Assembly: GCF_024623785.1 (NCBI RefSeq)
Contig: NZ_JANKBZ010000005.1
Location: 1-64,000, forward strand
Length of the DNA stretch: 64,000 bases
Reading direction: 5' to 3'
DNA from: Archangium lipolyticum
GTDB taxonomy: Bacteria > Myxococcota > Myxococcia > Myxococcales > Myxococcaceae
This document shows positions 32,911 through 48,608 of the stretch, piece after piece (position 1 is the stretch's first letter; every line of letters begins with the position of its first letter). The translations under genes were made by a program, and so were the position numbers. The notes beneath the pieces are model-generated. The model did not search any database, had not been told where the DNA came from, and saw only the letters and a program-made list of their open reading frames with translations.

Positions 32911-32939
32911 TCCGCTCGCCCGTGAAGGGGAGAACCGTC

Positions 32940-34916
32940 GTGTCCGCTCTCATGTCTCGTGGCGCCCTCGTGGCCGCCGCTCTCGTTGCGCTCGCGCTCG
33001 CCGCGCTGCCGGCCCCGGCTCTCGGGCAGTGCCCGTCCTGGAAGCCCGTCGTCACCTGGAACACCTACCTGGGTGGCGGAACCCTGCCTGGCGGCGGCAC
33101 CAGCACGACCCGCACCACCGACAAGCTGCAAGGCCTCGCGGTGAACGACAAGGGCGAGGTCTTCGTGACGGGCCAGACGAACTCCGTCGGCTTTCCCTCC
33201 GGCACGGAGCTGCCCGCGACCAGCTCGGCCCAGGACGCCTTCGTCGCCAGGTTCAGCGCGGACGGCACGCGCCTGGAGTGGGTGCGGGTGTTCGGCGGCG
33301 TCAAGGACGAGGCGGGAATGAGGGTGGCGCTCGGCAACTCCGGCGAGGTGTATGTCGTGGGGACGACCCGATCGTCCGAGCTCCTGACCGCCTCGGGTGC
33401 CGCGAAGACCGTGCTGACGCATCAGGGCGATGCGGATGGCAAGGACGCCTTCCTCGCGCAGCTGTCCGCGACCGGCGAGCTGAACTGGTTCATGTTCCTG
33501 GGGGGCAGCGGGGAGGACGAGGGCCTGGGGCTCGCCGTGAGCCCGGACAACAAGGTGTACGTCATCGGGCGCACCACGTCGGACCTGACGGGCCTGGGGA
33601 CGCGATATGGCGTGCGCGGAGACGGCTTCGATGCGTTCGTCATCCAGGTGGACGTCTCCAATTCCACTTCGCCGAGGCCCGTGTGGACCCGGCTCCTGGG
33701 CTCGCAGGACGATTTCTTCGGCTTCGAGGCGGATGACGCGGCCTATTCCGTGGTGGCCACGGCGGACGCGATCCTCGTGGGAGGAATCGCCGGGTCCATC
33801 ATGCTGGGCGTGTCCGATACGGTGGTCCGTGAGAAGTTCCACAGGGGGGACGACGACGGCTTCGTCGCGAAGCTGAACCCCACCGACTCCTCCGTCGTGT
33901 GGCTCACCAACGTGGGATACGGCAACGGATCGACCGAGGTTCACGACGTCCTGGTGCGATCCGATGGAGGGCTCGTCACGGTGGGCGCCACGACATCCAC
34001 CGGGTTCATCACGCCGACTTCGGAGGACGACAGTGACCTCTTCGTGTTGCGTCTGGACTCGGAGGGCAGGGACGCTGGCGTGAAGCGGCGGTTCATCGGA
34101 CGCGGCGACGATGGGGTGGGCCACGCCACGCTCGACATGCGAGACAACCTCTTCATTGTCGGGCTGGTGGGCTCGGCGGGGCTCGCCCTCAACGGCTTCG
34201 ACAACGCCTTCGAGCCCTCCACCGATGGCTTCGTGATGATGCTGGATGGAGCGTTGAACACCCGTTGGGCCTCCTATGTGGGAGGGAGCGCCTCCAGTCC
34301 CGAATGGGTCACGGCACTGGCCATCGATTCGCGGGGGCAGCTCACCCTGGGAGGGTTCTCCTCCGCGTCCACGAGCTTCTTCTCCACGAACGCCGGTTAC
34401 GAGCGTTCACCCCGTGGAGGGGATGACGCGTTCGTCCTGCGCGTGGTGATGGACACCACCGAGCCGGTGACGGGCTCCGTGGAGGCCGGAGTCACTCCGC
34501 GAGGCCGCATCACCGCGACGTGGAATGGCTTCTCGGATCCGGAGACCTCCATCGCCCGTTACGAGTGGGCCATCCGCACCGCGGGCGGCGTGGTGCGCGA
34601 CTTCCAGCCCGTGGACGGCACGACCGCGACCGCCAGTGAGCTCCTGCCCCAGGTGGGGACGCCCTACTTCGTCACGGTGCGCGCGACCAATGGCGCGGGT
34701 TGCAGCGCGGAGAAGAGCTCGCCGGAGGTCGTCCTGACGTCGCCACCCGACTCCGAGCCGGACGAGGGGCCGGATGGGACTCCCTCCGGCTCGCCGCTCC
34801 AGTCTCCGCTGGGGTGGGGTTGTGGCAGTACGGGGACGGGTGGCGGGGCCGAGGGGGCGTTGGCGCTGATGGCCCTGACGCTGCTGGTGGTGCGCCGCGC
34901 ACGTCTTCTGGCTTGA
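32940..34916 (+). CDS. SBBP beta-propeller MYXO-CTERM surface protein
   Basis: 658 residues from the GTG at 32940, with AAGGGGAG at good spacing; ATG at 32952 is an alternative. Signal peptide cleaved after PALGQ. Repeats such as 'GEVFVTGQTNSVGFP', 'DAFVARFSADGTRLEWVRVFGG' and 'DAFLAQLSATGELNWFMFLGG', about 55-60 residues each, are SBBP propeller blades. A fibronectin-III-like domain (about 500-590) follows, then PLGWGCGS, a hydrophobic helix and RRARLLA: a MYXO-CTERM sorting tail. Only 29 bases after the barrel gene and 12 before the next propeller gene. Confidence 0.8.
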   Translation: MSALMSRGALVAAALVALALAALPAPALGQCPSWKPVVTWNTYLGGGTLPGGGTSTTRTTDKLQGLAVNDKGEVFVTGQTNSVGFPSGTELPATSSAQDAFVARFSADGTRLEWVRVFGGVKDEAGMRVALGNSGEVYVVGTTRSSELLTASGAAKTVLTHQGDADGKDAFLAQLSATGELNWFMFLGGSGEDEGLGLAVSPDNKVYVIGRTTSDLTGLGTRYGVRGDGFDAFVIQVDVSNSTSPRPVWTRLLGSQDDFFGFEADDAAYSVVATADAILVGGIAGSIMLGVSDTVVREKFHRGDDDGFVAKLNPTDSSVVWLTNVGYGNGSTEVHDVLVRSDGGLVTVGATTSTGFITPTSEDDSDLFVLRLDSEGRDAGVKRRFIGRGDDGVGHATLDMRDNLFIVGLVGSAGLALNGFDNAFEPSTDGFVMMLDGALNTRWASYVGGSASSPEWVTALAIDSRGQLTLGGFSSASTSFFSTNAGYERSPRGGDDAFVLRVVMDTTEPVTGSVEAGVTPRGRITATWNGFSDPETSIARYEWAIRTAGGVVRDFQPVDGTTATASELLPQVGTPYFVTVRATNGAGCSAEKSSPEVVLTSPPDSEPDEGPDGTPSGSPLQSPLGWGCGSTGTGGGAEGALALMALTLLVVRRARLLA

Positions 34917-34928
34917 AGGGAGTGTCTC

Positions 34929-37280
34929 ATGTTCCGTCGCGTGCTTGGGGTGCTGGCGGCCGCTGGTGCCTGTCTCGTGTCATGGGGAGCGGTGAGCAAG
35001 ACCCGGCCTTCCACCGAGTCCCAGGCTCCCTCCAGACCGGCCTCCCTCCCGGTGCCCGTCTTCCGGCCGGGCATCGCTCCCGCGCCAGCGGGCTCCGCGG
35101 GGCACTTCGTGCTTCAGCGCCGCGAGGCCCGTGCCCTCTTCACCGACAAGGGCCTGTCGCTGAGCCTGCCCTCGCGCACCCTGCGGGCACGCGAGCTGGG
35201 CTGGAGTGTGGCCGGTGGCCGCGCGGTGAAGCCCCGGGCGGAGAAGCCGCGAGAGGCGAAGCTCCACCGGCTGGTGGGGCCGAGCGAGGCCTGGGAGCGG
35301 GAGGTGCCCACCTATGGAGGGCTGCGCTACCCGGGCGTGTTGCCTGGGGTGGACCTGTGGCTCGAGGAGCGCGCCGAGGGCGTGGAGTATGGCTTCCGGG
35401 CCGAGCGCGGCGCGGACCTGCGCCGGGTGAAGCTGGAGTACGACGGCGCGCGGGAGGTGCGCGTCGTGGAGGCGGGGCGCGCGCTGGAGGTGGACCTGGG
35501 CGAGGGCGTGCTGAGAGAGGAGGGCCTGCGGTGTCTACAGGAAGCGGCGGATGGCCGTCCTCGCGAGGTGGGTTGCCGCTTCGCGGACGCACGCCCGGTG
35601 GGACAGGATCGATGGGAGTACGCCATCCAGGTGGACGTGGAGGATCCGGAGCGCCCGGTGGTGGTGGACCCGCTCGTCCTCTGGGACACCTATCTCTGGG
35701 GCACGGGTCTCACCAATTCGCTCTCGGATATCGAGCAGAACGCGGCGGGAGACATCTTCATCGTCGGCACGTACGGCGGCTCCCTGGGGGCTCCACCGGA
35801 TGCGGGGGTCATCGGTGCGCCCGGCGGCGGGACCGATGTGCTCGTCGCCAGGTTTAGCAACGACGGAGGGCTCGTCTGGGCGACGCAGCTCGGTGGCAGT
35901 GGAATCGACGAGGGCAGGGCGCTCGCGGTCAATGAGTCCGGCGAGGTGTTCGTCGCGGGCAGCACGACCACCGAGCTGGTCCAGTGGAACCTGCCCGATG
36001 GAGGGATCGGCACCAGTGGATCGCTGGGAGGAACGGGCCTCGATGCCAAGGATGGCTTCCTGGCCAGGCTCGCTCCCTCCGGGCAGCGGCTCGACGGGTT
36101 CGTCCGCTTCGGCGGGAGCGCCAGGGATGAGGTCCACAACCTGCGCCGGGTCTCGGAGACCCGGGCGTTCGTCGTCGGGCAGACCTGGTCGCGCGACATC
36201 CCGAACATCAAGTCTCCCTCGGATGCCGGCTATCAGGGGGCCGAGGGGTTCGTGTCCCGGATCGATCTCGGTGCGCCCCAGGTGGATTGGACCGTGCTCA
36301 TCCAGGGCGCGGGGGATGACGCGGCGTACGACGCCATCCATCAGGACACCGTGCTCTACGTCGTGGGGAGCGGGGAGTCTGCCTCAGCGGGCGGTGCCAC
36401 GGCTGGCACGACGGACGCCTTCGTCGTGCCCATCTTCTCCATCGGTGCCGACAGTCCCAGCCGCAAGGAGATCATCCGTCTGGGCGGCGGTGATGGGAAC
36501 GACGAGGCGCGTGCGGTGAGCCTCACTCCCTTGGAGGATGTGGTGATGTGGGGAACCACGGCGGCCACCCGGTTCCCGAATGCCGGCCAGGTCAAGGGTT
36601 CCTCCGACCTCTTCGCGGCGGTCTTCGGGAGTGCCCTGTCCGCTTCCAGCGGTATGTCCTTGAAGAAGACCCTCCTCATCGGAGGGAGTGGGAGTGATCA
36701 ATTCTCCGCCCTGGCGACGGATGTGTCCGGACAGACCTACGTGGGAGGCCAGACGCGATCGCCTGACTTTCCTGTGACAGGGGGATTCGATACCTCCATG
36801 GAGCAGGGCGGGGTGGAAGGCTTCGTGGCGAGGGTGGAGCTGGATTCGCAGCCTCCAATAGCCTGGGGCTCATTCGTCGGTGGGAACGGAGTGGACAACG
36901 TCCTCGCGCTGCGGAGTGACAATCGGAACGAGTCACGTCTGTTCATCGGCGGCACCACCACCTCGAAGGATTTGAGCTATTCCAGTGGTGGCTACGCCCC
37001 GAGCACGAGTGGCGAGAACATGTTCCTGCTGTCGGTGGACCTGAATGCCTCTCCAGACGGTGGGACGGATGGCGGAACCGGCGGCGGAGAGGATGGGGGG
37101 ACGGACGCGGGAACGGGCGGCGGAGAGGATGGGGGTGGACCCGATGCGGGGACAGGAACGCAGCGCTCTCCGCTCGGCTGGTCCTGTGGTTCCACCGAGG
37201 GGAGGCCGGGAGCCCTCGCGCTCGGTACTCTCGTGGGGTTCGCGCTGCTGGCCTCGCGCCGGAGGAAGTCGCGCGTTTGA
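34929..37280 (+). CDS. SBBP beta-propeller MYXO-CTERM surface protein with DUF7948-like N-domain
   Basis: 783 residues; AAGGGAG precedes the ATG. After the signal, residues 55-235 form a beta-rich N-domain (FVLQRREARALFTDKGLSLSL, RYPGVLPGVDLWLEERAEGVEYGF) of the kind that precedes SBBP repeats in many secreted bacterial proteins. The propeller covers about 240-700 (DVLVARFSNDGGLVWATQLGG, FVAGSTTTE). A DGGTGGGEDGG linker leads to PLGWSCGS, helix, RRRKSRV: MYXO-CTERM. Probably a paralogue of the preceding gene. Confidence 0.8.
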   Translation: MFRRVLGVLAAAGACLVSWGAVSKTRPSTESQAPSRPASLPVPVFRPGIAPAPAGSAGHFVLQRREARALFTDKGLSLSLPSRTLRARELGWSVAGGRAVKPRAEKPREAKLHRLVGPSEAWEREVPTYGGLRYPGVLPGVDLWLEERAEGVEYGFRAERGADLRRVKLEYDGAREVRVVEAGRALEVDLGEGVLREEGLRCLQEAADGRPREVGCRFADARPVGQDRWEYAIQVDVEDPERPVVVDPLVLWDTYLWGTGLTNSLSDIEQNAAGDIFIVGTYGGSLGAPPDAGVIGAPGGGTDVLVARFSNDGGLVWATQLGGSGIDEGRALAVNESGEVFVAGSTTTELVQWNLPDGGIGTSGSLGGTGLDAKDGFLARLAPSGQRLDGFVRFGGSARDEVHNLRRVSETRAFVVGQTWSRDIPNIKSPSDAGYQGAEGFVSRIDLGAPQVDWTVLIQGAGDDAAYDAIHQDTVLYVVGSGESASAGGATAGTTDAFVVPIFSIGADSPSRKEIIRLGGGDGNDEARAVSLTPLEDVVMWGTTAATRFPNAGQVKGSSDLFAAVFGSALSASSGMSLKKTLLIGGSGSDQFSALATDVSGQTYVGGQTRSPDFPVTGGFDTSMEQGGVEGFVARVELDSQPPIAWGSFVGGNGVDNVLALRSDNRNESRLFIGGTTTSKDLSYSSGGYAPSTSGENMFLLSVDLNASPDGGTDGGTGGGEDGGTDAGTGGGEDGGGPDAGTGTQRSPLGWSCGSTEGRPGALALGTLVGFALLASRRRKSRV

Positions 37281-37326: not shown

Positions 37327-37950
37327 ATGTCCAAGCCACCGAACAAACAGGCGCGCCCCGTGGATCCGCGTGTCCAACGCAGCCGCGCCATGCTCCGCGA
37401 TGCGCTCCTCGGGTTGATTCGTGAGCGGGGCTTCGACGCCATCAGCGTGCAGGACATCACCGAGCGCGCCCAGCTCAACCGCAGCACCTTCTACCTGCAC
37501 TACCGCGACAAGGACGAGCTGCTCACCCAGGTCATGCGGGACATGATCCTCGAGCTCTCGCGGAGGAGTCATGCGCTGGGGGACTCACCGGATCGCCTCC
37601 ATCGAACCCTGCTGGAGTGGTTCCAGCACGCGGCCGAGTACCCCGAGCTGTATCACCTCATGCTCGGCCGGAGCGGCATGCGCCCCTTCGCGGTCCAGCT
37701 GCGCAACATCCTCGAGCAGCTCATGAATCTCGACCTGGAGAGAGCTGACATCCCTCTCCGGATGTCGGGGGTGCCCGTCTCCGTCCTGAACCGCTTCTTG
37801 ACCTCGGCCTACATGGGGGTGCTCGAGTGGTGGTTGGATCGCCGCTCGCTCCATTCTCCGGAGGACATGGCACGGTGGCTGGGGACCCTCACCTCCATGC
37901 TGGGGAACCCCCCACCGGTCACTCCGTCCCACGCGCCCCGGCGCGGGTAG
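37327..37950 (+). CDS. TetR-family transcriptional regulator
   Basis: 207 residues. N-terminal HTH at 20-65: LLGLIRERGFDAISVQDITERAQLNRSTFYLHYRDKDELL in pieces typical of TetR, with the C-terminal TetR domain of the DUF/TetR_C_33-like type containing WFQHAAEYPELYHLMLGRSG. It follows the second propeller gene by 46 bases on the same strand. A 17-base inverted repeat at 38046, 95 bases after its stop, is a candidate operator. Confidence 0.88.
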   Translation: MSKPPNKQARPVDPRVQRSRAMLRDALLGLIRERGFDAISVQDITERAQLNRSTFYLHYRDKDELLTQVMRDMILELSRRSHALGDSPDRLHRTLLEWFQHAAEYPELYHLMLGRSGMRPFAVQLRNILEQLMNLDLERADIPLRMSGVPVSVLNRFLTSAYMGVLEWWLDRRSLHSPEDMARWLGTLTSMLGNPPPVTPSHAPRRG

Positions 37951-38234: not shown

Positions 38235-39653
38235 GTGCTCCGGGGACTCATTCTGGGGGCCGCCGTATTCCTGTCGGGGGTGGCGTTGGCCAAACCTCCC
38301 GCGGGTGGGGTGTTCTGCTCCACCTATCCCTCGGCGCCCGCGTGCACGGGGCAACAGCCGTCTTGCACGTACTGTCACGTCGCGCCGCCACAGCGCAACG
38401 CCTTCGGTTCCAGGCTGGAACGCCACCTGGCTCCCGGCGCGACGCGCCCCCTGTCCGATGGGGAATTCGCGTCCGCGCTTCCCTGGGCGCTGAAGGCCGT
38501 CGAGGGGGAGGACGCCGATGGTGACGGCGTGTCCAACCTCGTGGAGATCCAGCGCGGGACCTTCCCGGCGGATGCCAACAGCGTGCCCGTGGACACCGGC
38601 CGCTGCCAGGCGGGAGAGAATCCCCAGTACGACGTGTGCCGGTACGACGCGCGCTTCGCGTACAAGCGCCTGCTGCTCGACTTCTGTGGCGTGCCGCCCA
38701 CCTATGCGCAGATGAAGGAGTTCATCGCGCTGAGCGCCGACGCGCAGCGCGCCCGGATGGATGCCGAGCTGGACCGGTGCACCCAGAGCGAGTTCTGGCG
38801 CGGCAAGAACGGGCAGCTGTGGAAGCTCGCGCACCCGAAGATCCGCCCGGTGGGCTCGCTCAAGGAGGGTGAGGACCCCGGGACCATTGCCCTCGCCGAC
38901 TACTACGACGACTACGCGCTCTACGCCTACGCGCAAATCGACGACCACGACGCGCGTGAGGTGATCACGGCGAAGCACTATGTGCGCCGGGAGACCAACC
39001 CCACCCGCTACACGGCGGTGCCGTCATTGCCGACGCAGTCCATGGATGAGTTGCACCGCGCGGGCAACATCACCTCCCGATGGAGCCTCCTCTACTTCGT
39101 GATGTTCAGCGCGATGCCGCGCAACGCCGCGTCGCAGGCCTACCGGGCGTACCTGGGACTCGACATCGCCAAGCAGGAGGGCCTCTTCAGCATTCCCGGC
39201 GAGCCCCGCGACTACGACGCCAAGGGAGTGACCGCGCCCGCCTGCGCGGCCTGTCACGCCACGCTCGATCCGCTGAGCTACCCCTTCCGCAACTACGAGG
39301 GCCTCTCCTTCCCCATCAACCCCGATGCGCCCTGGGGCACCTACGTGCCCAACCGCATCGAGAAGCGCTTCCCCAACGCCTCGCCGATCATCACCCAGAT
39401 GCCGGAGACCGGTTACCTCTTCGGCCAGCCGGTGAACAGCCTCGTCGAGTGGGCGGAGGTCGGGGCCAACAGCGATGCCTTCGCCATCGCCGCCGTCACC
39501 GACTACTGGAAGCTGCTCGTGGGCCATCCCCCCACCGCGGAGGAGAACGCCGAGTTCGTCGCCACCTGGAAGCGCTTCAAGGGCACGCACCAGTACCGCG
39601 TGCAGCGCATGCTTCACGACCTGATCCGCACGGAGGCCTACGGTGCGCCCTGA
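38235..39653 (+). CDS. Cassette 1, gene A: exported CxxCH (cytochrome-c-type) protein
   Basis: 472 residues from the GTG at 38235. This start is chosen because the paralogue at 44623 begins at the same place (VLRxLILxA) and is 471 residues; an ATG at 38121 would add 38 residues encoded by atypical A-rich DNA. Signal ends VALA. Two heme-attachment motifs: CTYCH near residue 50 and CAACH near 338, the latter in CAACHATLDPLSYPFRNYEG, which resembles the DUF1588/DUF1592 c-type domains of planctomycete and myxobacterial proteins. A calcium-type loop DADGDGVSNLVEI lies near 95. Probably a periplasmic redox protein. Its stop overlaps gene B by 11 bases. Confidence 0.7.
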   Translation: MLRGLILGAAVFLSGVALAKPPAGGVFCSTYPSAPACTGQQPSCTYCHVAPPQRNAFGSRLERHLAPGATRPLSDGEFASALPWALKAVEGEDADGDGVSNLVEIQRGTFPADANSVPVDTGRCQAGENPQYDVCRYDARFAYKRLLLDFCGVPPTYAQMKEFIALSADAQRARMDAELDRCTQSEFWRGKNGQLWKLAHPKIRPVGSLKEGEDPGTIALADYYDDYALYAYAQIDDHDAREVITAKHYVRRETNPTRYTAVPSLPTQSMDELHRAGNITSRWSLLYFVMFSAMPRNAASQAYRAYLGLDIAKQEGLFSIPGEPRDYDAKGVTAPACAACHATLDPLSYPFRNYEGLSFPINPDAPWGTYVPNRIEKRFPNASPIITQMPETGYLFGQPVNSLVEWAEVGANSDAFAIAAVTDYWKLLVGHPPTAEENAEFVATWKRFKGTHQYRVQRMLHDLIRTEAYGAP

Positions 39654-40317
39654 TTTCCTTCGCGTGTTGCTGCTGTCCTCCGCCTGTGTCCTCGCCGCGT
39701 GCTCGTCTTCCTCGCCCTCGGGGCCGGATGCCGGCACACCCCCACCCGAGGATGCCGGGACGGGCTCTTCCGGTGAGGTGGCGCCCTCTTCGCGCGACAA
39801 CCTGCGCTTCAAGAATCCGGAGCAGCTGACGGCCCATTTCGCCTCGGCGCTGTCCCTGCCGCCGGAGCAGGTGTGCAACGAGCTGGGTCAGTACCCCTGC
39901 ACCACGTACGTGCACAACGTGGCCCTGGGGGGGGTCGAGCCCTATGGGGTCGGTCTCTACGAGCCCCTGACGTCCACGGGCGTGACGACCCCTGTCGCCA
40001 TCGACCGCCTGGCGCTGACGGCTTGCGCCCGGCGCGTCTCGCTCGACGCCACCAGCCCTGGGGAGGCGGTCCTCTTCAAGGGCCTCGAGCTCGACGCGCA
40101 GGGGCGTCTGGTGAACCGGGAGGGTGCGCCGGTCCGCGACGCCATCACCGCGCTCTACCAGCGCACCCTGTTGCGAGAGCCCACGGAAACAGAGGTGGGC
40201 ACGTTGTCGCAACTGGCCACGCAGCTCGAGTCCAAGGGCAGTCAGACGCCGGGCCGCGACTGGATGATCGCGGCCTGTTTCGCCGTCCTCTCTTCCGCCG
40301 AATCCGTCTTCTTCTAA
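39643..40317 (+). CDS. Cassette 1, gene B: lipoprotein
   Basis: 224 residues from a GTG at 39643, which overlaps gene A by 11 bases; GGAG upstream is within gene A. Lipobox VLAAC (Cys20), then a Ser/Pro/Asp-Ala-Gly linker and a conserved domain from about 48 with RDNLRFKNPEQLTAHFASALSLPPEQVCNELGQYPC. Two Cys (about 80 and 88) plus one near 130 may form a disulfide. The C-terminal part, ITALYQRTLLREPTETEVGTLSQL, resembles the 'LYRxxLGRxPxxxE' helix of DUF1592-type proteins. Unknown function, probably a partner of A and C. Confidence 0.65.
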   Translation: MRPDFLRVLLLSSACVLAACSSSSPSGPDAGTPPPEDAGTGSSGEVAPSSRDNLRFKNPEQLTAHFASALSLPPEQVCNELGQYPCTTYVHNVALGGVEPYGVGLYEPLTSTGVTTPVAIDRLALTACARRVSLDATSPGEAVLFKGLELDAQGRLVNREGAPVRDAITALYQRTLLREPTETEVGTLSQLATQLESKGSQTPGRDWMIAACFAVLSSAESVFF

Positions 40318-40326
40318 GGGAACGTC

Positions 40327-41871
40327 ATGTCACTGCGTAACAATGGACGGCTCTCGCGCCGGGAAATCCTGAAGGCCTTGTCGATGTGCGCGGCGGGCTC
40401 CGCGACCCTGGGGCCGCTGCTGACGGGCTGCCGGGATGTGCTCAATACGCCAGCGGCACTCGAGCAACTCGGGGGTGTGCGCCAGGCGCGCCTGGATGGC
40501 AAACCCCGTTTCCTCATCGTGGTGGGCGCCGTGGGAGGCGCTTCCATCATCGACAGCATGCTGGCGGTACGGGCCGCGGAGGCGGGCGCCAACGCGGCGA
40601 AGCTCAACACCTTCGCCGACTCGCAGGTGCAACTGGTGGAGGGCTCTCCGTTCCGTGCCGTGAAGGTGGACAGCCCCCAGCTGGGCAACATTCCCGTGCC
40701 GGTGAAGACGGACCAGCTGCCCTTCGTGAAGAAGTACAAGGACTCCATGCTGGTGGCCACCTCGGTGGGCACGTCGGTCAACCATGTCATCGCGCAGAAG
40801 CGGAGCCTGACCGGAAACAACGCCTGGCGTGGCCGCACGTTGCAGGAGTGTGTGGCCCTCCAGTACGGCGCGGGCTTCCCCATTCCCAACGTGAACATGG
40901 GCAACTCGGGCTTCTCCGAGCGCGGCACCGACAACACCCTGCCCGCGCACTGCTACGGGGAGGTGGTGGCCAACCCCTCGCTCTGGCCCCTGGGTCTCGA
41001 TGGGGTGAAGGGCATCAAGGACCTGCCTTCCCGCGAGGTGGTGGCCCTGACGCGGAGCGTGCGCAACTCACTCGATGCCCAGTCGGTCTTCGGGAAGACC
41101 TTCGACGACGCGGCGGCACTCAAGCTGTGGAATGAGCAGCGCACCACGGGACAGTCCGCGCTGGAGGTCCAGGATCTGATCAACCGCCTCAACGTGCTGC
41201 CTGACGATCCGAAGACGCCGCTCTCGGAGTACGGCCTGTCGAGCTCCCCCGATGCGGAGAAGCTGCGGGCGGTCTTCCCGAACTACATGAGCGACCCCGT
41301 GGAGGGGCAGGCGGCGCTGGCGTTCCTGCTGCTCAAGAACCGGGTGTCGGTGACGGTGACGCTGGGGCCGTCGTTCAACATGGCGGTGACTCCCTCGTAT
41401 CAGGTCACCAACCCGCCGCTGGCCTTCGACTTCAGCCACAATGATCATCGCTCCATCCAGGCGTTCATGTGGTCGCGCCTGATGGACACGATCGACAAGC
41501 TCATCGGGTTGCTCAAGTCGGAGCCCTTCGACTCGAGCGGCGAGAGCCTGTGGGACCGGTCGTTGATCTACATGGCGACCGAGTTCGGACGCACGCGCAC
41601 GCGGGAGGGTGCCACGGAGAACTTCGGTACCGGACATGACCTCAACAACGGTTTCATGATCCTCTCGCCGATGGTCCGGGGCAACACGGTGCTGGGAGGG
41701 GTGGATCCGAGCACCACGCTGACCTACGGCTTCGACCCGCGCACCGGCGCACCCGAGCGCGGCAAGACGGAGTCGAACGAGCCGGACATCTTCTCGGGCA
41801 TCCTCACGGCGATGGGGGTCGACACCTCTGGCAGCGGACTGCCCGACGCGAGCGCCTTCGCGCGCACCTGA
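40327..41871 (+). CDS. Cassette 1, gene C: Tat-exported DUF1501-like protein
   Basis: 514 residues. Twin-arginine signal NGRLSRREILKAL followed by a hydrophobic stretch and a possible lipobox (LLTGC, Cys37). The C-terminal half has MATEFGRTRT and GTGHDLNNGFMILSPMVRGNT, corresponding to the DUF1501 (alkaline-phosphatase/sulfatase-like fold) 'SEFGRTPxxNGGRDH' and following strand. DUF1501 proteins are typically encoded with c-type cytochrome proteins, as here. Enzyme activity is not known. AAGGGA precedes the ATG, nine bases after gene B. Confidence 0.7.
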   Translation: MSLRNNGRLSRREILKALSMCAAGSATLGPLLTGCRDVLNTPAALEQLGGVRQARLDGKPRFLIVVGAVGGASIIDSMLAVRAAEAGANAAKLNTFADSQVQLVEGSPFRAVKVDSPQLGNIPVPVKTDQLPFVKKYKDSMLVATSVGTSVNHVIAQKRSLTGNNAWRGRTLQECVALQYGAGFPIPNVNMGNSGFSERGTDNTLPAHCYGEVVANPSLWPLGLDGVKGIKDLPSREVVALTRSVRNSLDAQSVFGKTFDDAAALKLWNEQRTTGQSALEVQDLINRLNVLPDDPKTPLSEYGLSSSPDAEKLRAVFPNYMSDPVEGQAALAFLLLKNRVSVTVTLGPSFNMAVTPSYQVTNPPLAFDFSHNDHRSIQAFMWSRLMDTIDKLIGLLKSEPFDSSGESLWDRSLIYMATEFGRTRTREGATENFGTGHDLNNGFMILSPMVRGNTVLGGVDPSTTLTYGFDPRTGAPERGKTESNEPDIFSGILTAMGVDTSGSGLPDASAFART

Positions 41872-41886
41872 GCCACCGGGGACCTT

Positions 41887-41922
41887 CCCCTCTCCCTCCG
41901 GGAGAGGGACGGGGTGAGGGTA
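41887..41922 (+). repeat. REP-like palindrome, copy 1
   Basis: CCCTCTCCC (41888-41896), TCC loop, GGGAGAGGG (41900-41908), followed by ACGGGGTGAGGGT. Same element as at 48470 and, inverted, at 48558. It lies 15 bases after cassette 1 and between convergent genes, so it may also end transcription. Confidence 0.8.
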
Positions 41923-41985
41923 CCTGGAGCAACCAGGTTGCCCTCACGTTTCGGCCTGGTTGCTGTCACGGGCCCTTGCGGGGTT

Positions 41986-43587
41986 TCAAAGGCGGTGCTT
42001 CACGAGCAGGAGGAACTCCCAGTACCCGAGGGAGCGCTGATAATCGACGTTGTAGAAGAAGTAGTGAATGCGGGGGCTCGCGGTGAGCTCGAAGCCGCCC
42101 CAGAGCCGCCACCGTATGCCGGCCACGAGACCTGGGGTGAGCATCCCATACTGTTGATCCGGGAGGCTCGGGTCCTTGAAGTCGCTGCGCATGCCGAGGA
42201 AGGCGAGCCGTGGTCCGATGAAGAGGGACGCGCGGCCCAGGGGCCACTCGGCCACCAGCGAGGTGCCCGCGGTCAGCAGCATGTACTGGTAGCGTGCTCC
42301 CGAGAGGAGGGGGTGCTCCAGCGTGACCTCGCGCGTGCCCAGGACCAGGTCGAAGGTCCAGCTCCAACCCTCGCGCAAGTAGTCGTGCAGGCCCAGCTCC
42401 AGGCCCAGCATGGGCGTGTAGGGGAAGAGGCTCTCGTGGGCGGGGGCATTGAAGAAGGCGTGATGTCCGCCGGTGAGGCCCAGCGTCCAATACGAGCGGG
42501 ACTCCTGCTCCCGGGAAGGCACGCCCTTCACCGGATCATCCGAGAAGGGCGTGTCCCGCAGCCGCGACTCGTCGAGCACCGTGGTGAGCCCGCGCCGGAC
42601 CTCGGTCTCGCCCACGCGCAGCCGGTCCGTCAGCCGCCGCTTCACCGTATACGTGCCCGGGGCCAGGGCCAGCCTCCGCTCGGAGTCCGTGGCCTTGTGC
42701 AACTCCGCCACCACGAGGCCTCGAGGGTTCACGAAGTAGTAGGCCCCCGCGGGCGCGGTGCGAGGCACCAGCAGTCCCTCGCCGCTCCCGCGCACATCCG
42801 TCAACACCAGGTCGCCCTGGCCGGCCAGGTCGTAGCTGAAGGTGGGGTGCTGGGGCCCGGTGCTGCTGTCCGCGGTGTCCGCCACGGTGCGGGCGTAGGC
42901 ATGGGCGTAGGCCTCGAAGAGCGTCACCTGCCCGTCGCCCGAGCGGTCCGCGTCCCCCAGCAGCCCGCTGGCCAGGTGGTGGGAGAAATAGCTGCCGCCC
43001 AGCAGATCCGACTCCTGCGAGTCCTCGTCCGCCGCGCTGGAGGTGAGGATGACGAGCCCCTTGCTCTCGTGCGTGGCGTCCGTGTCGATGGCGAAGGCCG
43101 GAGCGCGCCGGGCTCCCTTCCTGCGTGTGAGCGCCCCGGAGCGGCACGAGTCCAGGATGGTGATGCGGATGTCCACGGGCGCTGTCGCCAGCCGGCGCTT
43201 CAGCGCCTCCAGGTCCAGCGTGCTGTCTCCCATCCGCAGCGAGCCGTCCTTCGCATGGCCCGAGTAGTAGACGATGAGCGAGGTGCGTTCTCCCCGGGCC
43301 CGTGCCTCCCGTGCGCGCGCTTCCAACCTGGCGAGCGCCTGGAGGAAGTCCTCCGCGTTCTCGTCCAGCAGCAGCCGCGCATCACCGGGCTCCACTCCGC
43401 CCAGCCGCACCAGGAGCTCGTGCATCTTGCGCGCATCGTCCTTCGCGAAACGCAGGGGCCGGGTGTGCGCGCCGCCCTTGTCGTTGCCCGCCACCAGCGC
43501 GAAGCGGCGCAGCGGCTGTGCCTGCACGGCCGTTGCCAGCAACAACCCCAGGACGAGCACCCGGGCAGGACCCGCGAGGCATCTCAT
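41986..43587 (-). CDS. Exported caspase-like (C14) protease fused to an outer-membrane beta-barrel
   Basis: 533 residues. Sec signal cleaved after VQA (about 23). Caspase-like domain 27-240: VAGNDKG, the catalytic His111 in YYSGHAKDG, Cys148 in ILDSCRSGA, and an EF-hand-like loop DADRSGDGQVTLFEAY (212-227) common in orthocaspases, which often need calcium. A PEGA-like middle part (about 270-330, YFVNPRGLVVAEL) leads to roughly 180 residues of alternating strands ending in HRL, which look like an eight-strand outer-membrane barrel. Topology suggests a protease in the periplasm or on the surface. Third gene of the sigma operon, 14 bases after the anti-sigma gene. Confidence 0.78.
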   Translation of the reverse strand: MRCLAGPARVLVLGLLLATAVQAQPLRRFALVAGNDKGGAHTRPLRFAKDDARKMHELLVRLGGVEPGDARLLLDENAEDFLQALARLEARAREARARGERTSLIVYYSGHAKDGSLRMGDSTLDLEALKRRLATAPVDIRITILDSCRSGALTRRKGARRAPAFAIDTDATHESKGLVILTSSAADEDSQESDLLGGSYFSHHLASGLLGDADRSGDGQVTLFEAYAHAYARTVADTADSSTGPQHPTFSYDLAGQGDLVLTDVRGSGEGLLVPRTAPAGAYYFVNPRGLVVAELHKATDSERRLALAPGTYTVKRRLTDRLRVGETEVRRGLTTVLDESRLRDTPFSDDPVKGVPSREQESRSYWTLGLTGGHHAFFNAPAHESLFPYTPMLGLELGLHDYLREGWSWTFDLVLGTREVTLEHPLLSGARYQYMLLTAGTSLVAEWPLGRASLFIGPRLAFLGMRSDFKDPSLPDQQYGMLTPGLVAGIRWRLWGGFELTASPRIHYFFYNVDYQRSLGYWEFLLLVKHRL

Positions 43588-43601
43588 GGCTTGCGCGGGA
43601 G

Positions 43602-43841
43602 TCAGTGGACCTCCTCGCCTTCCACGCCTGCCTCCCAGGCCCGCCGTGCCCCCACGCCTGCCGCGAATCGCTCGAAGGGAACCTCCTCCTCGAAGCGGAC
43701 CTGGTTGGCCTCGAGGCCCTTCATGATTTCGTCACACTCCGCGCACGAGGACACATGCGCCCGGACCCGTTGGATTTCCGGGCCGGGAAGCTCTCCGGCG
43801 TGCAGCCGCCGCAGCGTCCATTCCGACGGGTGAGCGCTCAT
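43602..43841 (-). CDS. Zinc-finger anti-sigma factor (zf-HC2 type), small
   Basis: 79 residues. HVSSCAECDE gives the His-x3-Cys-x2-Cys zinc motif of ZAS anti-sigma factors. There is no membrane helix, so it is a soluble regulator. Its ATG overlaps the sigma stop by four bases (ATGA), as is normal for sigma/anti-sigma pairs. Cys oxidation could release the sigma factor; this is inference. Confidence 0.75.
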   Translation of the reverse strand: MSAHPSEWTLRRLHAGELPGPEIQRVRAHVSSCAECDEIMKGLEANQVRFEEEVPFERFAAGVGARRAWEAGVEGEEVH

Positions 43842-44359
43842 GGAACCATCAGCTCCTCGTTCGTCAGGGCGGCGAATCGTTCCAGCCGCTTGCGCACCGT
43901 GGGCACCGAGCGCTCCAGAATCGAGGCCACCTCTTCCAGCGTCATTCCATCCACCCAGTAGTGTACCACCGCCGCCTGTGTCTCCAGGTCCACCCGGGAG
44001 AGCAGCGACCGCAGCAGCGCCCGCGTCTCCATCTTCTGCTCTCCCCCATCTCCCTCCGGACGGGCCAGCGCGTCCCGTTCGAACCAGCGCCGCCAGGGGG
44101 CCCGCTCCGAGCGCAGCTGGTTGAGGCAGAGGTGGGTGGCGCTCTTCATCAACCACGCCAGCGGCGAGGCACCGGCGCGGAGCTCGTCCGCGTGGGAGAG
44201 GGCGCGGGCGAATACCTCCTGCATCGCGTCCTCGGCCTTCGTGGCGTCCTTCAACAGATAGCGGCAACGCTCGTACACGCTGCCTCCATACGCCGTGTAC
44301 AGCCCGCGCAGGAACTCGCTCCGGTCCTTGTCCTTCTGCCCTCCAGTGATGGCCTTCAA
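43838..44359 (-). CDS. ECF-type RNA polymerase sigma factor
   Basis: 173 residues from a TTG at 44359, the only usable start before an in-frame stop upstream. Region 2: GLYTAYGGSVYERCRYLLKDATKAEDAMQEVFARAL; region 4: VDGMTLEEVASILERSVPTVRKRLERF. Its operon continues with the anti-sigma and caspase-barrel genes. The 263-base gap to cassette 2, which is divergent, probably holds promoters for both, so cassette 2 is a good candidate regulon member. Confidence 0.88.
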   Translation of the reverse strand: MKAITGGQKDKDRSEFLRGLYTAYGGSVYERCRYLLKDATKAEDAMQEVFARALSHADELRAGASPLAWLMKSATHLCLNQLRSERAPWRRWFERDALARPEGDGGEQKMETRALLRSLLSRVDLETQAAVVHYWVDGMTLEEVASILERSVPTVRKRLERFAALTNEELMVP

Positions 44360-44622
44360 GGCTGGATGGGGTAGGTCCTGCCACGGCCTGGTGAAGCCGC
44401 GTCGGTTGGCGAGCTGGCGTCCCAGCCCTCGTGTTGTCTCTGCCTGTTACGGCCCATGGACATCGTCCTCGGGCGTGAGCGCCAGGCCGCTCTTCCCGGT
44501 GCGGGTTGTTCGTTCTCCCGTAGGGACACAGCAGGGGCCCGGAAACAGAAAAGCCGATTTTCATTTAAATGCCGCTGCTGTGTCTCTCCACCAGGACCCT
44601 CTTCCATCCATGAGGAGCACTG
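44360..44622. promoter_or_regulatory. Divergent promoter region of the sigma operon and cassette 2
   Basis: 263 bases without a gene. It has the only strongly AT-rich tract of the locus (44551-44570, ending in ATTTAAAT) and, towards the sigma gene, GTAAC on the minus strand near 44450, which resembles an ECF -35 element; I could not fix a matching -10. Confidence 0.35.
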
Positions 44623-46038
44623 GTGCTTCGACGACTCATTCTGGCAGCCACCCTCTGCCTCGCGGGGGGCGCGTTGGCCAAGCCTCCTGCGGGAGGTGTG
44701 TTCTGCTCCACCTATCCTTCGGCACCCGCGTGCACGGGACAGCAGCCGTCCTGCAACTTCTGTCACGTCGCGCCACCCCAGCGAAACGTCTTCGGCGCCG
44801 GGCTGGAGCCCCATCTGGCCCCCAGCGCACCACGCCCGTTGTCCGACACGGACTTCGCGTACGCGCTCCCCACGGCGTTGAAGGCCGTCGAGACGGAGGA
44901 TGCCGACGGTGACGGCGTGTCCAACCTCGTGGAGATCCAGCGAGGCACCTTCCCGGGCGATCCCAACAGCGTGCCCGCGGACACCGGCCACTGCCAGGCG
45001 GGTGAGAATCCCCAGTACGACGTGTGCCGGTACGACGCGCGCTTCGCGTACAAGCGCCTGCTGCTCGACTTCTGCGGCGTGCCGCCCACCTACGCGCAGA
45101 TGAAGGAGCTCAGCGCGCTGAGCGCCAGCGACCAGCTCACCCGGATGGATGCCGAGCTGGACCGGTGCACCCAGAGCGAGTTCTGGCGCGGCAAGAACGG
45201 GCAGCTGTGGAAGCTGGCGCACCCGAAGATCCGCCCGGTGGCCACGTTCAAGGCGGGCCCGGAGGACACAGGGACCAATCCCCTCGGCGACTATTATGAC
45301 GATTACGCGCTCTACGCCTACGCGCAGATCGACGACCACGACGCGCGCGAGGTGATGACGGCGAAGTACTACGTGCGCCGGGAGACCCACCCCACCCGCT
45401 ACACGGCGGTGCCGTCTCTGCCGACGCAAGTCATGGAGGAGCCGCACCGCGCGGGCAACCTCACCTCCAAGTGGAGCATCCTCTACTTCGTGATGTTCAG
45501 CGCGATGCCGCGCAACGCCGCGTCGCAGGCCTACCGGGCGTACCTGGGTCTCGATATCGCCAAGCAGGAGGGCCTCTTCAGCATTCCCGGCGAGCCTCGC
45601 GACTACGACCACGCGGGCGTGACCTCACCCGGCTGCGCAGCCTGCCACGCCACGCTCGACCCACTGACCTACCCCTTCCGCAACTACCAGGGGATCTACA
45701 TCAATGATTACCCCACCTCGGCGCACTACGTACCCGACCGCCTCGAGAAGTACTTCTCCGATGTCTCTCCGATCATCACCCAGACACCGGAGGCCGGCTA
45801 CCTCTTCGGCCAGAAGGTGAACAACCTCATCGAGTGGGCGGAGGTCGGGGCCAACAGCGATGCCTTCGCCATCTCCGCCGTCACCGACTACTGGAAGCTG
45901 CTCGTGGGCCATCCCCCCACCCCCGAGGAGAACGCCGAGTTCGTCGCCACCTGGAAGCGCTTCAAGGGCACGCACCAGTACCGCGTGCAGCGCATGCTTC
46001 ACGACCTGATCCGCACGGAGGCCTACGGTGCGCCCTGA
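44623..46038 (+). CDS. Cassette 2, gene A: exported CxxCH (cytochrome-c-type) protein
   Basis: 471 residues from a GTG at 44623 with GAGGAG at good distance. Paralogue of the gene at 38235 over the whole length; signal ends GALA. Heme motifs CNFCH and CAACH, and the DADGDGVSNLVEI loop, are conserved. It differs most at residues 350-375, where copy 1 has LSFPINPDAPWGTYVP and this copy has a shorter IYINDYPTSAHYVP. Such divergence inside a conserved frame suggests specialisation of the second heme domain. Confidence 0.75.
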   Translation: MLRRLILAATLCLAGGALAKPPAGGVFCSTYPSAPACTGQQPSCNFCHVAPPQRNVFGAGLEPHLAPSAPRPLSDTDFAYALPTALKAVETEDADGDGVSNLVEIQRGTFPGDPNSVPADTGHCQAGENPQYDVCRYDARFAYKRLLLDFCGVPPTYAQMKELSALSASDQLTRMDAELDRCTQSEFWRGKNGQLWKLAHPKIRPVATFKAGPEDTGTNPLGDYYDDYALYAYAQIDDHDAREVMTAKYYVRRETHPTRYTAVPSLPTQVMEEPHRAGNLTSKWSILYFVMFSAMPRNAASQAYRAYLGLDIAKQEGLFSIPGEPRDYDHAGVTSPGCAACHATLDPLTYPFRNYQGIYINDYPTSAHYVPDRLEKYFSDVSPIITQTPEAGYLFGQKVNNLIEWAEVGANSDAFAISAVTDYWKLLVGHPPTPEENAEFVATWKRFKGTHQYRVQRMLHDLIRTEAYGAP

Positions 46039-46705
46039 TTTCCTTCGCGTGTTGCTGCTGTCCTCCGCCTGCGTCCTCTCCGCGTGCCCGTCGTCGCCTT
46101 CGCCCTCGGGGCCGGATACCGGCACGCCGCCGCCTGTCGATGCCGGCACGGGTTCCTCCGGTGAGGTGGCGCCCTCCTCGCGCGACAACCTGCGCTTCAT
46201 GAATCCGGAGCAACTGACGGCCCACTTCGCCTCGGCGCTGTCCCTGCCGCCGGAGCAGGTGTGCAACGAGCTGGGCCAGTATCCTTGCGCCACCTACGCG
46301 CACACCGTGGTCCTGGGCGGCGTCGAGCCCTATCGCGTGGGTCTCTACGAGCCCCTGAAGGTCACGGGCGCGACGACTCCCAACGTCATCGACCGCATGG
46401 CGCTGGCGGCTTGCGCCCGGCGCGTCTCGCTCGACGTCACCCACCCCGAGGAGGCGGTCCTCTTCAAGGGCCTCGAGCTCGATGCGCAGGGGCGCCTGGC
46501 GAACCGGGATGGTGCCCCGGTCCGCGACGTCATCACCTCGCTCTACCAGCGTGTCCTGTTGCGAGACCCCACGGAAACGGAGGTGGGCGCGTTGTCGCAA
46601 CTGGCCACCCGGATCGAGTCCACGGGTAGCCAGACACCGGGCCGCGACTGGATGACCGCGGCCTGCTTCTCCGTCCTCTCCTCCGCCGAATCCGTCTTCT
46701 TCTAA
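46028..46705 (+). CDS. Cassette 2, gene B: lipoprotein
   Basis: 225 residues from a GTG overlapping gene A by 11 bases, as in copy 1. Lipobox VLSAC (Cys20), then a Ser/Pro linker. NLRFMNPEQLTAHFASALSLPPEQVCNELGQYPC is nearly identical to copy 1; ITSLYQRVLLRDPTETEVGAL is the conserved C-terminal helix. Function unknown; probably anchored next to proteins A and C. Confidence 0.65.
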   Translation: MRPDFLRVLLLSSACVLSACPSSPSPSGPDTGTPPPVDAGTGSSGEVAPSSRDNLRFMNPEQLTAHFASALSLPPEQVCNELGQYPCATYAHTVVLGGVEPYRVGLYEPLKVTGATTPNVIDRMALAACARRVSLDVTHPEEAVLFKGLELDAQGRLANRDGAPVRDVITSLYQRVLLRDPTETEVGALSQLATRIESTGSQTPGRDWMTAACFSVLSSAESVFF

Positions 46706-46714
46706 GGGAACGTC

Positions 46715-48271
46715 ATGTCACTGCGTAACAATGGACGGCTCTCGCGCCGGGAAATCCTGAAGGCCTTGTCGATGTGCGCGGCGGGCTCCGCGACCCTGGG
46801 ACCCTTGCTGGCGGGCTGCCGGGACGCGCTCAACACTCCGGCGGCACTCGAGCAACTCGGGGGCGTGCGCCGGGCGCGCCTGGATGGCAAGCCCCGCTTC
46901 CTCATCGTGGTGGGCGCCATGGGAGGCGCCTCCATCGTCGACAGCATGCTGGCGGTGCGGGCCTCGGAGACCTCGGCGGCGGGCGGCAACCCCGCGAAGC
47001 TCAACACCTTCGCCGATGCACAGGTGCAGAACGTGGAGGGTTCTCCGTTCCGCGCCGTGAAGGTGGAGACGAACTATCTGGGCACCATCCCCACGCTGGT
47101 GAAGACGGACCAGCTGCCCTTCGTGCGCAAGTACAAGGACAGCATGCTGGTGGCCACCTCGGTGGGCACGTCGGTCAACCACGCCGTCGCGCAGAAGCGG
47201 AGCCTGACCGGCAACAACGCCTGGCGTGGCCGCACGTTGCAGGAGTGTGTGGCCCTCCAGTACGGCGCCGGCCTCCCTCTTCCCAATGTGAACATGGGCA
47301 ACGGGGGCTTCACCGAGCGCGGCACCGATGACTCCCTGCCCGCGTACTGCTACGGGGAGGTGGTGGCCAACCCCGCTCTCTGGCCCCTGGGCCTCGATGG
47401 GATGAAGGGCCTCAAGGACGTGCCTTCCCGCGAGGTGGTGGCTCTGGCCCGGAGCACGCGCGACACGCTCGATGCCCAGTCGGTCTTCGGGCGGACCTTC
47501 GACGACGCGGCGGCGCTCGAGCGGTGGAACGAGCAGCGCACCTCGGGGCAGGCCGCGCTGGAGGTCCAGGAGCTGATCAACCGCCTCAACGTGATGCCCG
47601 ATCAGCCGCCGACGATGCCGCTCTCGGAATACGGCCTGTCGAGCTCCCCCGATGCGGAGCGGCTGCGCGCGGCCTTCCCGAACTACATGACGGATCCCGT
47701 GGAGGGGCAGGCGGCGCTGGCGTTCCTGCTGATCAAGAACCGGGTATCGGTATCGGTGACACTGGGCCCGTCGTTCAACCTCGCGATAAGTCCACCGAAG
47801 CAGTTCACCAACCCACCGCTGGCCTACGACTTCAGCCACAATGAGCACCGCTCGGTCCAGGCCTTCATGTGGTCGCGCATGATGGACACGATCGACAAGC
47901 TGATCGAGTTGCTCAAGTCGGAGCCCTTCGACTCGAGCGGCGAGAGCCTGTGGGACCGCTCGTTGATCTACATGGCCACCGAGTTCGGGCGCACGCGCAC
48001 TCGGCGGGAGGGGGCCAGTCAGTTCGGCACCGGGCATGACCTCAACAACGGTTTCATGATCCTCTCGCCGATGGTCCGGGGCAACACGTTGCTGGGAGGC
48101 GTCGACCCGAGCACCACGCTGACCTACGGTTTCGACCCGCGCACCGGCGCGCCCGAACCCGGCAAGATGACAGCGAACGAAGCGGACATCTTCTCGGGCA
48201 TCCTCACCGCGATGGGCGTCGACACCTCCGGCAGCGGACTGCCCGACGCGAGCGCCTTCGTGCGCACCTGA
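46715..48271 (+). CDS. Cassette 2, gene C: Tat-exported DUF1501-like protein
   Basis: 518 residues. The signal region (NGRLSRREILKAL, LLAGC) is encoded by DNA identical to copy 1. Main differences are a four-residue insertion near 90 (SETSAAGGN) and changes near 350. The DUF1501-type motifs ATEFGRTRT and GTGHDLNNGF are kept. Followed by a hairpin at 48283. Confidence 0.7.
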   Translation: MSLRNNGRLSRREILKALSMCAAGSATLGPLLAGCRDALNTPAALEQLGGVRRARLDGKPRFLIVVGAMGGASIVDSMLAVRASETSAAGGNPAKLNTFADAQVQNVEGSPFRAVKVETNYLGTIPTLVKTDQLPFVRKYKDSMLVATSVGTSVNHAVAQKRSLTGNNAWRGRTLQECVALQYGAGLPLPNVNMGNGGFTERGTDDSLPAYCYGEVVANPALWPLGLDGMKGLKDVPSREVVALARSTRDTLDAQSVFGRTFDDAAALERWNEQRTSGQAALEVQELINRLNVMPDQPPTMPLSEYGLSSSPDAERLRAAFPNYMTDPVEGQAALAFLLIKNRVSVSVTLGPSFNLAISPPKQFTNPPLAYDFSHNEHRSVQAFMWSRMMDTIDKLIELLKSEPFDSSGESLWDRSLIYMATEFGRTRTRREGASQFGTGHDLNNGFMILSPMVRGNTLLGGVDPSTTLTYGFDPRTGAPEPGKMTANEADIFSGILTAMGVDTSGSGLPDASAFVRT

Positions 48272-48306: not shown

Positions 48307-48469
48307 CCCGTGTGCGCTGGATGAAGTCGCCTGAACAAGGGGTATAGATGTCCCGCACTGTCCAGTCTCTGTACGCACTCGGCATGCCCGCTGGGCTTCG
48401 AGGGCGGCGAGGCCATCTGCCCGTGCCACCTCTGTCACGGGAGTCACCGTGGTCATCGTGTAGTCATTT

Positions 48470-48504
48470 CCCCTCTCCCTTTGGGAGAGGGTCAGGGTGA
48501 GGGT
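48470..48504 (+). repeat. REP-like palindrome, copy 2 (forward)
   Basis: CCCTCTCCC, TTT loop, GGGAGAGGG, then TCAGGGTGAGGGT. With the inverted copy at 48558 it forms a larger structure, because GGTGAGGGTCTT (48496-48507) pairs with AAGACCCTCACC (48556-48567). Confidence 0.85.
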
Positions 48505-48557
48505 CTTTCGCCTGGAGTGCGTGGCCTCATGTTGGAGCGAGGAACACGCGGGTGAAG

Positions 48558-48593
48558 ACCCTCACCCCCCGCCCTCTCCCAGGGGGAGAGGGA
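48558..48593 (-). repeat. REP-like palindrome, copy 3 (inverted)
   Basis: GACCCTCACC followed by CCCTCTCCC, AGG and a G-rich arm: the reverse complement of copy 2. The two make a REPIN-like doublet, mobile in other genomes through a RAYT transposase, which is not in this window. Confidence 0.8.
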
Positions 48594-48608
48594 GCATGCG
48601 AAACACGA

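Follow-up and report, generated by a model that had tools for sequence, protein, structure and literature searches.

What connects a caspase homologue, an extracytoplasmic function (ECF) sigma factor and a set of exported cytochrome-like proteins? The question is raised by a 64,000-nucleotide stretch of the 12.6 Mb genome of Archangium lipolyticum (the window), in which two copies of a three-gene cassette, A-B-C, lie on one strand and genes for an ECF sigma factor, an anti-sigma factor and a caspase with a C-terminal beta-barrel lie between them on the other. From the sequence alone, an initial annotation had proposed that the sigma factor controls both cassettes. We consider it quite probable that the sigma factor belongs to a module with a small dedicated regulon; the link is carried by predicted promoters, and one of the two cassettes in the window has such a promoter. 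The layout originally described, i.e. same-strand cassettes with the same spacing and an opposite-strand sigma/zf-HC2/caspase group, was confirmed to the coordinate:

38235..39653, plus strand: A1, exported diheme c-type cytochrome-like protein, partial DUF1549 (PSCyt2) and DUF1588 (PSCyt3); GTG start; upstream motif score -11.2
39643..40317, plus strand: B1, lipoprotein, weakly DUF1595 (PSD5)-like
40327..41871, plus strand: C1, DUF1501-like, Tat signal and lipobox-like Cys
41986..43587, minus strand: predicted secreted caspase (Peptidase C14; His111/Cys148) with a C-terminal 8-strand outer-membrane-type barrel (about 366-532)
43602..43841, minus strand: zf-HC2 anti-sigma factor, HxxxCxxC retained, transmembrane segment and C-terminal domain deleted
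43838..44359, minus strand: ECF sigma factor, regions 2 and 4, TTG start in the present reading
44522..44552, minus strand: predicted autoregulatory promoter of the sigma operon, TTTTCTGTTTCCGGGCCCCTGCTGTGTCCCT; matrix score 34.4, covariance-model E 3.8e-4
44558..44587, plus strand: predicted sigma-dependent promoter of cassette 2, TTTTCATTTAAATGCCGCTGCTGTGTCTCT; matrix score 20.9
44623..46038, plus strand: A2, homologue of A1, member of the sigma-linked cassette clade
46028..46705, plus strand: B2, lipoprotein
46715..48271, plus strand: C2, DUF1501-like, Tat signal and lipobox-like Cys
37390..37950, plus strand: TetR-family regulator upstream of cassette 1; same neighbour at the A1-type cassettes of the related genomes G003 and G032 (L070)

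A promoter motif common to the sigma operon and the cassette

The sigma factor (173 aa) contains Sigma70 regions 2 and 4 only, which places it among the ECF factors (Pfam r2 7.7e-14 and r4_2 8e-7, both above cut-off). In most of the Myxococcaceae relatives examined it is encoded in a five-gene operon consisting of a lipoprotein, the sigma factor, a membrane anti-sigma factor of about 250 aa, the caspase and another lipoprotein, a relative of the first. A second sigma-caspase operon of this canonical kind is found on another contig of the same genome, where no cassette accompanies it, and the promoter-recognition segment RSVPTVRKRLE is identical in both sigma paralogs. The canonical operon has the motif TTTTCTGTTTT-N8/9-GCnGTGTCCAT ahead of its first gene, and this motif precedes the sigma operons of nearly all relatives examined.

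A two-block matrix was trained on 18 canonical sigma-operon promoters only, without any cassette sequence. It gave 34.4 for the sigma operon of the window, 20.9 for A2 and 16-38 for several unlinked cassettes, while 329 background upstream regions gave a 99% quantile of 4.4 and reached 13.9 at most. This maximum belongs to an exported PKD-domain protein beside the linked sigma operon of the related genome G004 (L161 3720-5805, motif 199 bp upstream); the gene may itself be a target. No motif was found before A1 (-11.2) or before its counterpart in G003 (-13.9), thus the proposed control of the cassettes by the sigma factor is supported for cassette 2 (44623) and for most unlinked cassettes, but not for cassette 1 (38235). 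Note that the two predicted promoters of the window are back to back and point in opposite directions, with 5 bp between their -35 elements.

A second test used 41 named loci from genomes that overlap the first set, so that it is partly independent. Scores of at least 10 were found for 22 of the 32 Myxococcaceae cassettes, but for none of 330 other genes and none of 9 cassettes from distant Myxococcota. Column-shuffled matrices reached a mean of 0.9 and a maximum of 10 of the 32 cassettes, and this control is a fairer guide than the Fisher test, which overstates the association as related cassettes are not independent. A stricter pattern was applied to 16 Corallococcus genomes: it matched 32 times, 16 times at the sigma operon, 15 times at the unlinked cassette (the cassette match begins 63-78 bp further on) and once elsewhere, with 0 matches in the reversed controls. 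The motif is therefore rare, with about two sites per Corallococcus genome. From these sequences we predict that the sigma operon is autoregulated, and we infer that the sigma factor drives the cassette. The latter is the best-supported step of our scheme, and what supports it is the promoters, not the neighbourhood. The sigma module appears to be dedicated to itself and to one exported cassette.

The picture within the A. lipolyticum genome is sparser. A genome-wide scan with a sequence-only covariance model singled out only the two sigma promoters, because no more than 150 of the 8952 candidates were scored. A looser pattern gave 6 matches versus 4 in the reversed control, and we therefore claim no wider regulon for this genome. 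Besides A2, the sole match of the looser pattern with a high matrix score (20.9) lies before an FG-GAP protein (contig C2:297756); the same pattern gave no obvious counterpart of this site in G003.

The two parts also occur together. In a survey of 195 genomes of the phylum, a strong barrel-caspase match was present in all 48 family genomes with a cassette (48/48), and the cassette was present in none of the 14 family genomes without such a match (chance figure 2e-5, relatedness ignored). Co-occurrence in relatives had originally been suggested as a check, with separate occurrence in most of them as counter-evidence. One half of that was found, since a sigma operon with no adjoining cassette is the rule and adjacency is limited to a few genomes, but every cassette genome of the family carries the module. 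Elsewhere in Myxococcota there are distant cassettes (A 42-48% identical), and at least three genomes there have related genes for a sigma factor and a caspase near each other on one contig; the sigma-operon motif was not found upstream of the distant cassettes (0/9). Myxobacterial-type cassettes are also present in two records titled Comamonas and Klebsiella pneumoniae (L169, L199), the titles of which appear to be wrong.

Origin of the window arrangement

In both cassettes A and B overlap by 11 bases and B and C are separated by 9. The A, B and C copies are 84.0, 85.7 and 85.8% identical in protein, and about 89% in DNA, so the matching spacing is a matter of homology and not of coincidence. 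A third A-B-C copy stands alone elsewhere in the genome, with no adjoining sigma operon. Local tandem duplication was considered as the origin of the twins and is ruled out by the tree of A proteins, where A1 and A2 fall into separate clades: A2-type cassettes form a clade that matches the linked caspases, and A1 groups with the unlinked cassettes. The TetR neighbour of A1 is also found beside the A1-type cassette of G032, at another place in that genome. Taken together, the tree and the TetR neighbour indicate that the twin cassettes were assembled from two loci. In G032 the C gene of this A1-type cassette has a large internal deletion (L070, L006) and is probably a pseudogene.

The tree of caspases agrees with this division: it joins the copies from the window, G003, G004 and G032 in a single clade and separates them from the canonical copies that three of these genomes also have. 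The divergent sigma/A2 arrangement was read in the sequence of four genomes and is implied by coordinates in two more (G123 and G124), but twin linkage, i.e. both cassettes at the sigma operon, was seen in only two of the genomes examined, the present one and G003. What had been described as a three-gene operon does exist in the window, but it is the remnant of the five-gene operon of the relatives; neither lipoprotein gene is left, and it is a rearranged paralog of that operon.

The anti-sigma factor has also been reduced. It was correctly labelled as a zf-HC2 protein (Pfam above cut-off, HVSSCAEC as HxxxCxxC), but it is an internally deleted form of 79 aa, compared with 99 aa in G003 and about 250 aa in the relatives. 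Alignment shows that the first 63 or so residues are retained, including HVSSCAEC, and that an internal deletion of about 450 bp is common to the window and G003; the last residues are still present in G003. What is missing in both is the hydrophobic segment together with the presumably periplasmic C-terminal domain. The truncation is confined to these two genomes among those aligned, and the relatives, like the canonical operon of this genome, encode full-length forms. The anti-sigma factor of the window is thus small and presumably soluble, in which case control of it at the membrane would no longer be possible.

The ratios of nonsynonymous to synonymous substitution (dN/dS) between this genome and G003 are rough, as the distances are small. 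They are 0.14 for the sigma factor, which is under purifying selection, 0.12-0.17 for A1-B1-C1 and 0.34-0.42 for A2-B2-C2. The window caspase is under weaker constraint: 0.55 compared with 0.18 for the canonical caspase of the same two genomes, with the difference especially pronounced in the barrel (0.76 linked, 0.08 canonical). A comparison of G004 with G032, both of which have a full-length anti-sigma factor, shows the same degree of relaxation for the linked caspase (0.56), so the deletion in the anti-sigma factor alone cannot explain the relaxation.

Two further observations concern the surroundings. A similar GC-rich intergenic inverted repeat lies 3' of both cassettes (41893-41920, 48461-48505 and 48555-48595; CTCTCCC...GGGAGAGG...GGGTGAGGGT) and looks like a dispersed genomic repeat. 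At 32922-34916 and 34929-37280 there are two adjoining exported proteins of the SBBP-repeat beta-propeller type, both with a myxosortase-like end (SPLGW-CGS, a hydrophobic stretch and an Arg-rich terminus).

The proteins and a possible mechanism

The caspase (Peptidase C14, Pfam 1.3e-11) has a His/Cys dyad, H111/C148, that is invariant in 19 sequences. The predicted model (mean pLDDT 79) consists of a caspase domain (Z 19.6 to caspase-7), a small beta domain and then a barrel of eight predicted strands (366-532), most of them confident. The barrel resembles NspA and OmpA (structure search: NspA TM 0.80 by target, OmpA E about 1e-8), and a profile search of PDB sequences independently returned metacaspase-1 and NspA (NspA E 0.0012). 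The NCBIfam model for EACC1-associated caspases gave a match below its cut-off only. We predict a secreted protein that its OmpA-like barrel would anchor in the outer membrane. One in-frame TAG is present in the canonical caspase frame of a cassette-bearing genome of the Myxococcus group (G153:C1:6175826-6176623).

The export signals first reported for the cassette products are present, as assigned by eye: Sec-type in A, a lipobox (AAC/SAC) in B and twin-arginine SRREILK in C. In C the signal is followed by a conserved lipobox-like L-x-G-C, and since its Cys35 is invariant in nine C relatives, C is probably a Tat lipoprotein. The two CxxCH heme motifs reported for A are likewise there, and invariant in nine A relatives. 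A scores below the Pfam gathering thresholds (DUF1549 23 vs 29.8 bits, DUF1588 23 vs 27 bits), although both domains are matched by 9/9 members of the set. The label DUF1501 for C fares similarly: 9/9 relatives match (best E 3.5e-6), but the window copies, at 16 and 13.8 bits, are below the cut-off of 27. We therefore treat A and C as distant relatives of PSCyt2/PSCyt3 and of DUF1501, respectively, rather than as members. B has a weak DUF1595 match. The AlphaFold model of C is too poor for a fold search (pLDDT 46), and the profile search of PDB sequences found no relative for C or for A. The three proteins probably act as a joint redox or hydrolytic enzyme set on envelope or extracellular carbohydrate.

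How could these parts work together? In most Myxococcaceae the membrane-bound zinc-type anti-sigma factor would hold the sigma factor. Upon an envelope disturbance the barrel caspase and the lipoproteins would serve as sensor and trigger, the anti-sigma factor would be lost and the freed sigma factor would transcribe its own operon and the A-B-C cassette, usually distant on the chromosome. The diheme cytochrome, the lipoprotein and the DUF1501-type Tat lipoprotein would then be exported. In the window, a paralogous module now lies divergently beside A2, with both lipoprotein genes gone and a presumably soluble anti-sigma factor, and cassette 1 is a second, independently placed cassette that lacks the motif. 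The idea that the protease senses or executes an envelope response, already voiced in the initial annotation, gains plausibility from the predicted outer-membrane barrel. The most specific form of this scheme, in which the outer-membrane caspase cuts the periplasmic domain of the anti-sigma factor and so gates the sigma factor, with one diheme cytochrome/DUF1501 set as the main output and the window lineage rewired to a soluble anti-sigma factor, we regard as unlikely when taken as a whole.

Several points weigh against the scheme. The regulation of the cassette is deduced from sequence throughout. About one third of the family cassettes score below the strong range; examples are A. lansinium with 7.0, A. 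violaceum with 3.6 and, in this genome, the third copy with -3.6. In the metagenome-derived genome G030 the motif also precedes several other genes. Of 82 family genomes, 34 have the sigma module but no cassette, so the module also serves other purposes. Nothing links the caspase directly to the anti-sigma factor, and the equal relaxation in G004 and G032 points the same way; moreover, decay may explain the state of the linked copy better than specialisation does. As to G030 itself, the motif pattern occurs there 12 times, with 0 in the reversed control (L144, L145, L146, L148, L151, L152), and its sites include the upstream regions of CotH-like, glycosidase-like and fatty-acid-hydroxylase genes, i.e. 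a wider regulon.

The role of the caspase is the point on which other explanations come closest. The sigma factor may control the cassette while the caspase and the lipoproteins are outputs of the response that process or clear envelope or extracellular proteins, the sigma factor being freed by another protease or by the anti-sigma factor's own sensing; we give this a little less than an even chance. The caspase gene lies inside the putatively autoregulated operon, so its product would rise with sigma activity, and regulated intramembrane proteolysis of anti-sigma factors is usually the work of other proteases. The caspase shares its operon with the sigma and anti-sigma factors across the family and in distant Myxococcota, which suits a signalling part as well and does not discriminate. 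The motif might also be a general promoter element of some other factor common to the sigma operon and the cassette, as the assignment was made on sequence grounds and some cassettes have no motif. This is improbable given the rarity of the motif, its position before the sigma operon in nearly all relatives, as in autoregulated ECF operons, and the absence of the cassette where the module is absent.

Two other explanations concern the window only. The locus could be a decaying by-product of a rearrangement that fused two loci, with little function of its own, so that only the canonical copy matters. The truncated anti-sigma factor, the loss of both lipoprotein genes and the raised dN/dS of the caspase and of A2-B2-C2 relative to A1-B1-C1 fit this, but none of the nine reading frames is interrupted, the caspase has kept its dyad, the sigma factor is constrained, both predicted promoters are retained and the divergent arrangement recurs in other genomes; we find decay rather doubtful. 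Alternatively, the sigma factor and both flanking cassettes could be one local functional unit, as the divergent sigma and A2 promoters and the same twin arrangement in G003 might suggest. This is very improbable: A1 and its G003 counterpart have no motif, A1 belongs with the unlinked cassettes beside a TetR gene, and twin linkage is limited to two genomes. We thus prefer the ECF module with a small dedicated regulon, of which the window holds a rearranged copy.

Comparison with known systems

The combination of genes had been thought undescribed. We found no description of it, nor any work that uses both the planctomycete-specific cytochrome terms and myxobacteria, in a literature search of mainly open-access coverage, which makes such absence weak evidence; its parts do have known counterparts, namely sigma-metacaspase operons (PMC3501461) and an ECF-PSCyt2 pair (PMC2754498). 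As far as the open-access literature shows, the barrel-anchored caspase, the shared promoter with its nearly private regulon and the rearranged copy are new. The functions of bacterial caspase homologues and of PSCyt/DUF1501 sets are largely unknown, and a genus-conserved regulon of about two sites would tie both together, so that each gains a testable partner: the cytochrome cassette should act under the same conditions as induce the sigma operon. The predicted outer-membrane anchor hints at the place where the caspase would work, and the window lineage offers a traceable step from a membrane anti-sigma factor to a small soluble one.

It is instructive to compare the locus with these counterparts. 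Operons of sigma-70 factors and metacaspases were noted in 2012 in Myxococcus xanthus and other Deltaproteobacteria, including 4 of the 5 M. xanthus metacaspases, and as in the window they combine a sigma factor and a caspase homologue (PMC3501461). The portions of that survey considered here include no barrel anchor, promoter or target genes, whereas our data tie a putative regulon and a PSCyt/DUF1501 cassette to one such operon type. In Rhodopirellula baltica the ECF sigma factor RB10049 was suggested to regulate the PSCyt2/PSD1 protein RB10051 (PMC2754498, citing an earlier suggestion). Here too an ECF factor is proposed to act on a DUF1549 cytochrome-type protein, but that case is a suggestion for one gene pair of another phylum, with no caspase. 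PSCyt/PSD clusters of Planctomycetes and Verrucomicrobia, for which carbohydrate use was suggested from neighbourhood and domain content only (PMC5615132), likewise have cytochrome c domains with DUF1549/DUF1588 beside conserved partner families; unlike in these clusters, A of the window is much diverged (below cut-off) and split from B, and its DUF1501 partner has diverged.

The regulatory proteins can be compared in the same manner. Bacterial caspase systems of the EACC2 type also have a caspase domain with an ECF sigma gene nearby (PMC8195603), but for the window caspase secretion and an outer-membrane anchor are predicted, and its operon type contains an anti-sigma factor and lipoproteins. 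Finally, soluble anti-sigma factors are known to arise by truncation of membrane-anchored zinc-type ones (reviewed in PMC8103513). The anti-sigma factor of the window, with its HxxxCxxC domain encoded beside the sigma factor and its membrane part truncated, appears to follow this route; unlike the reviewed cases, the truncation is found only in this genome and G003 among those aligned, and the other copy, like the relatives, still has the full-length form.

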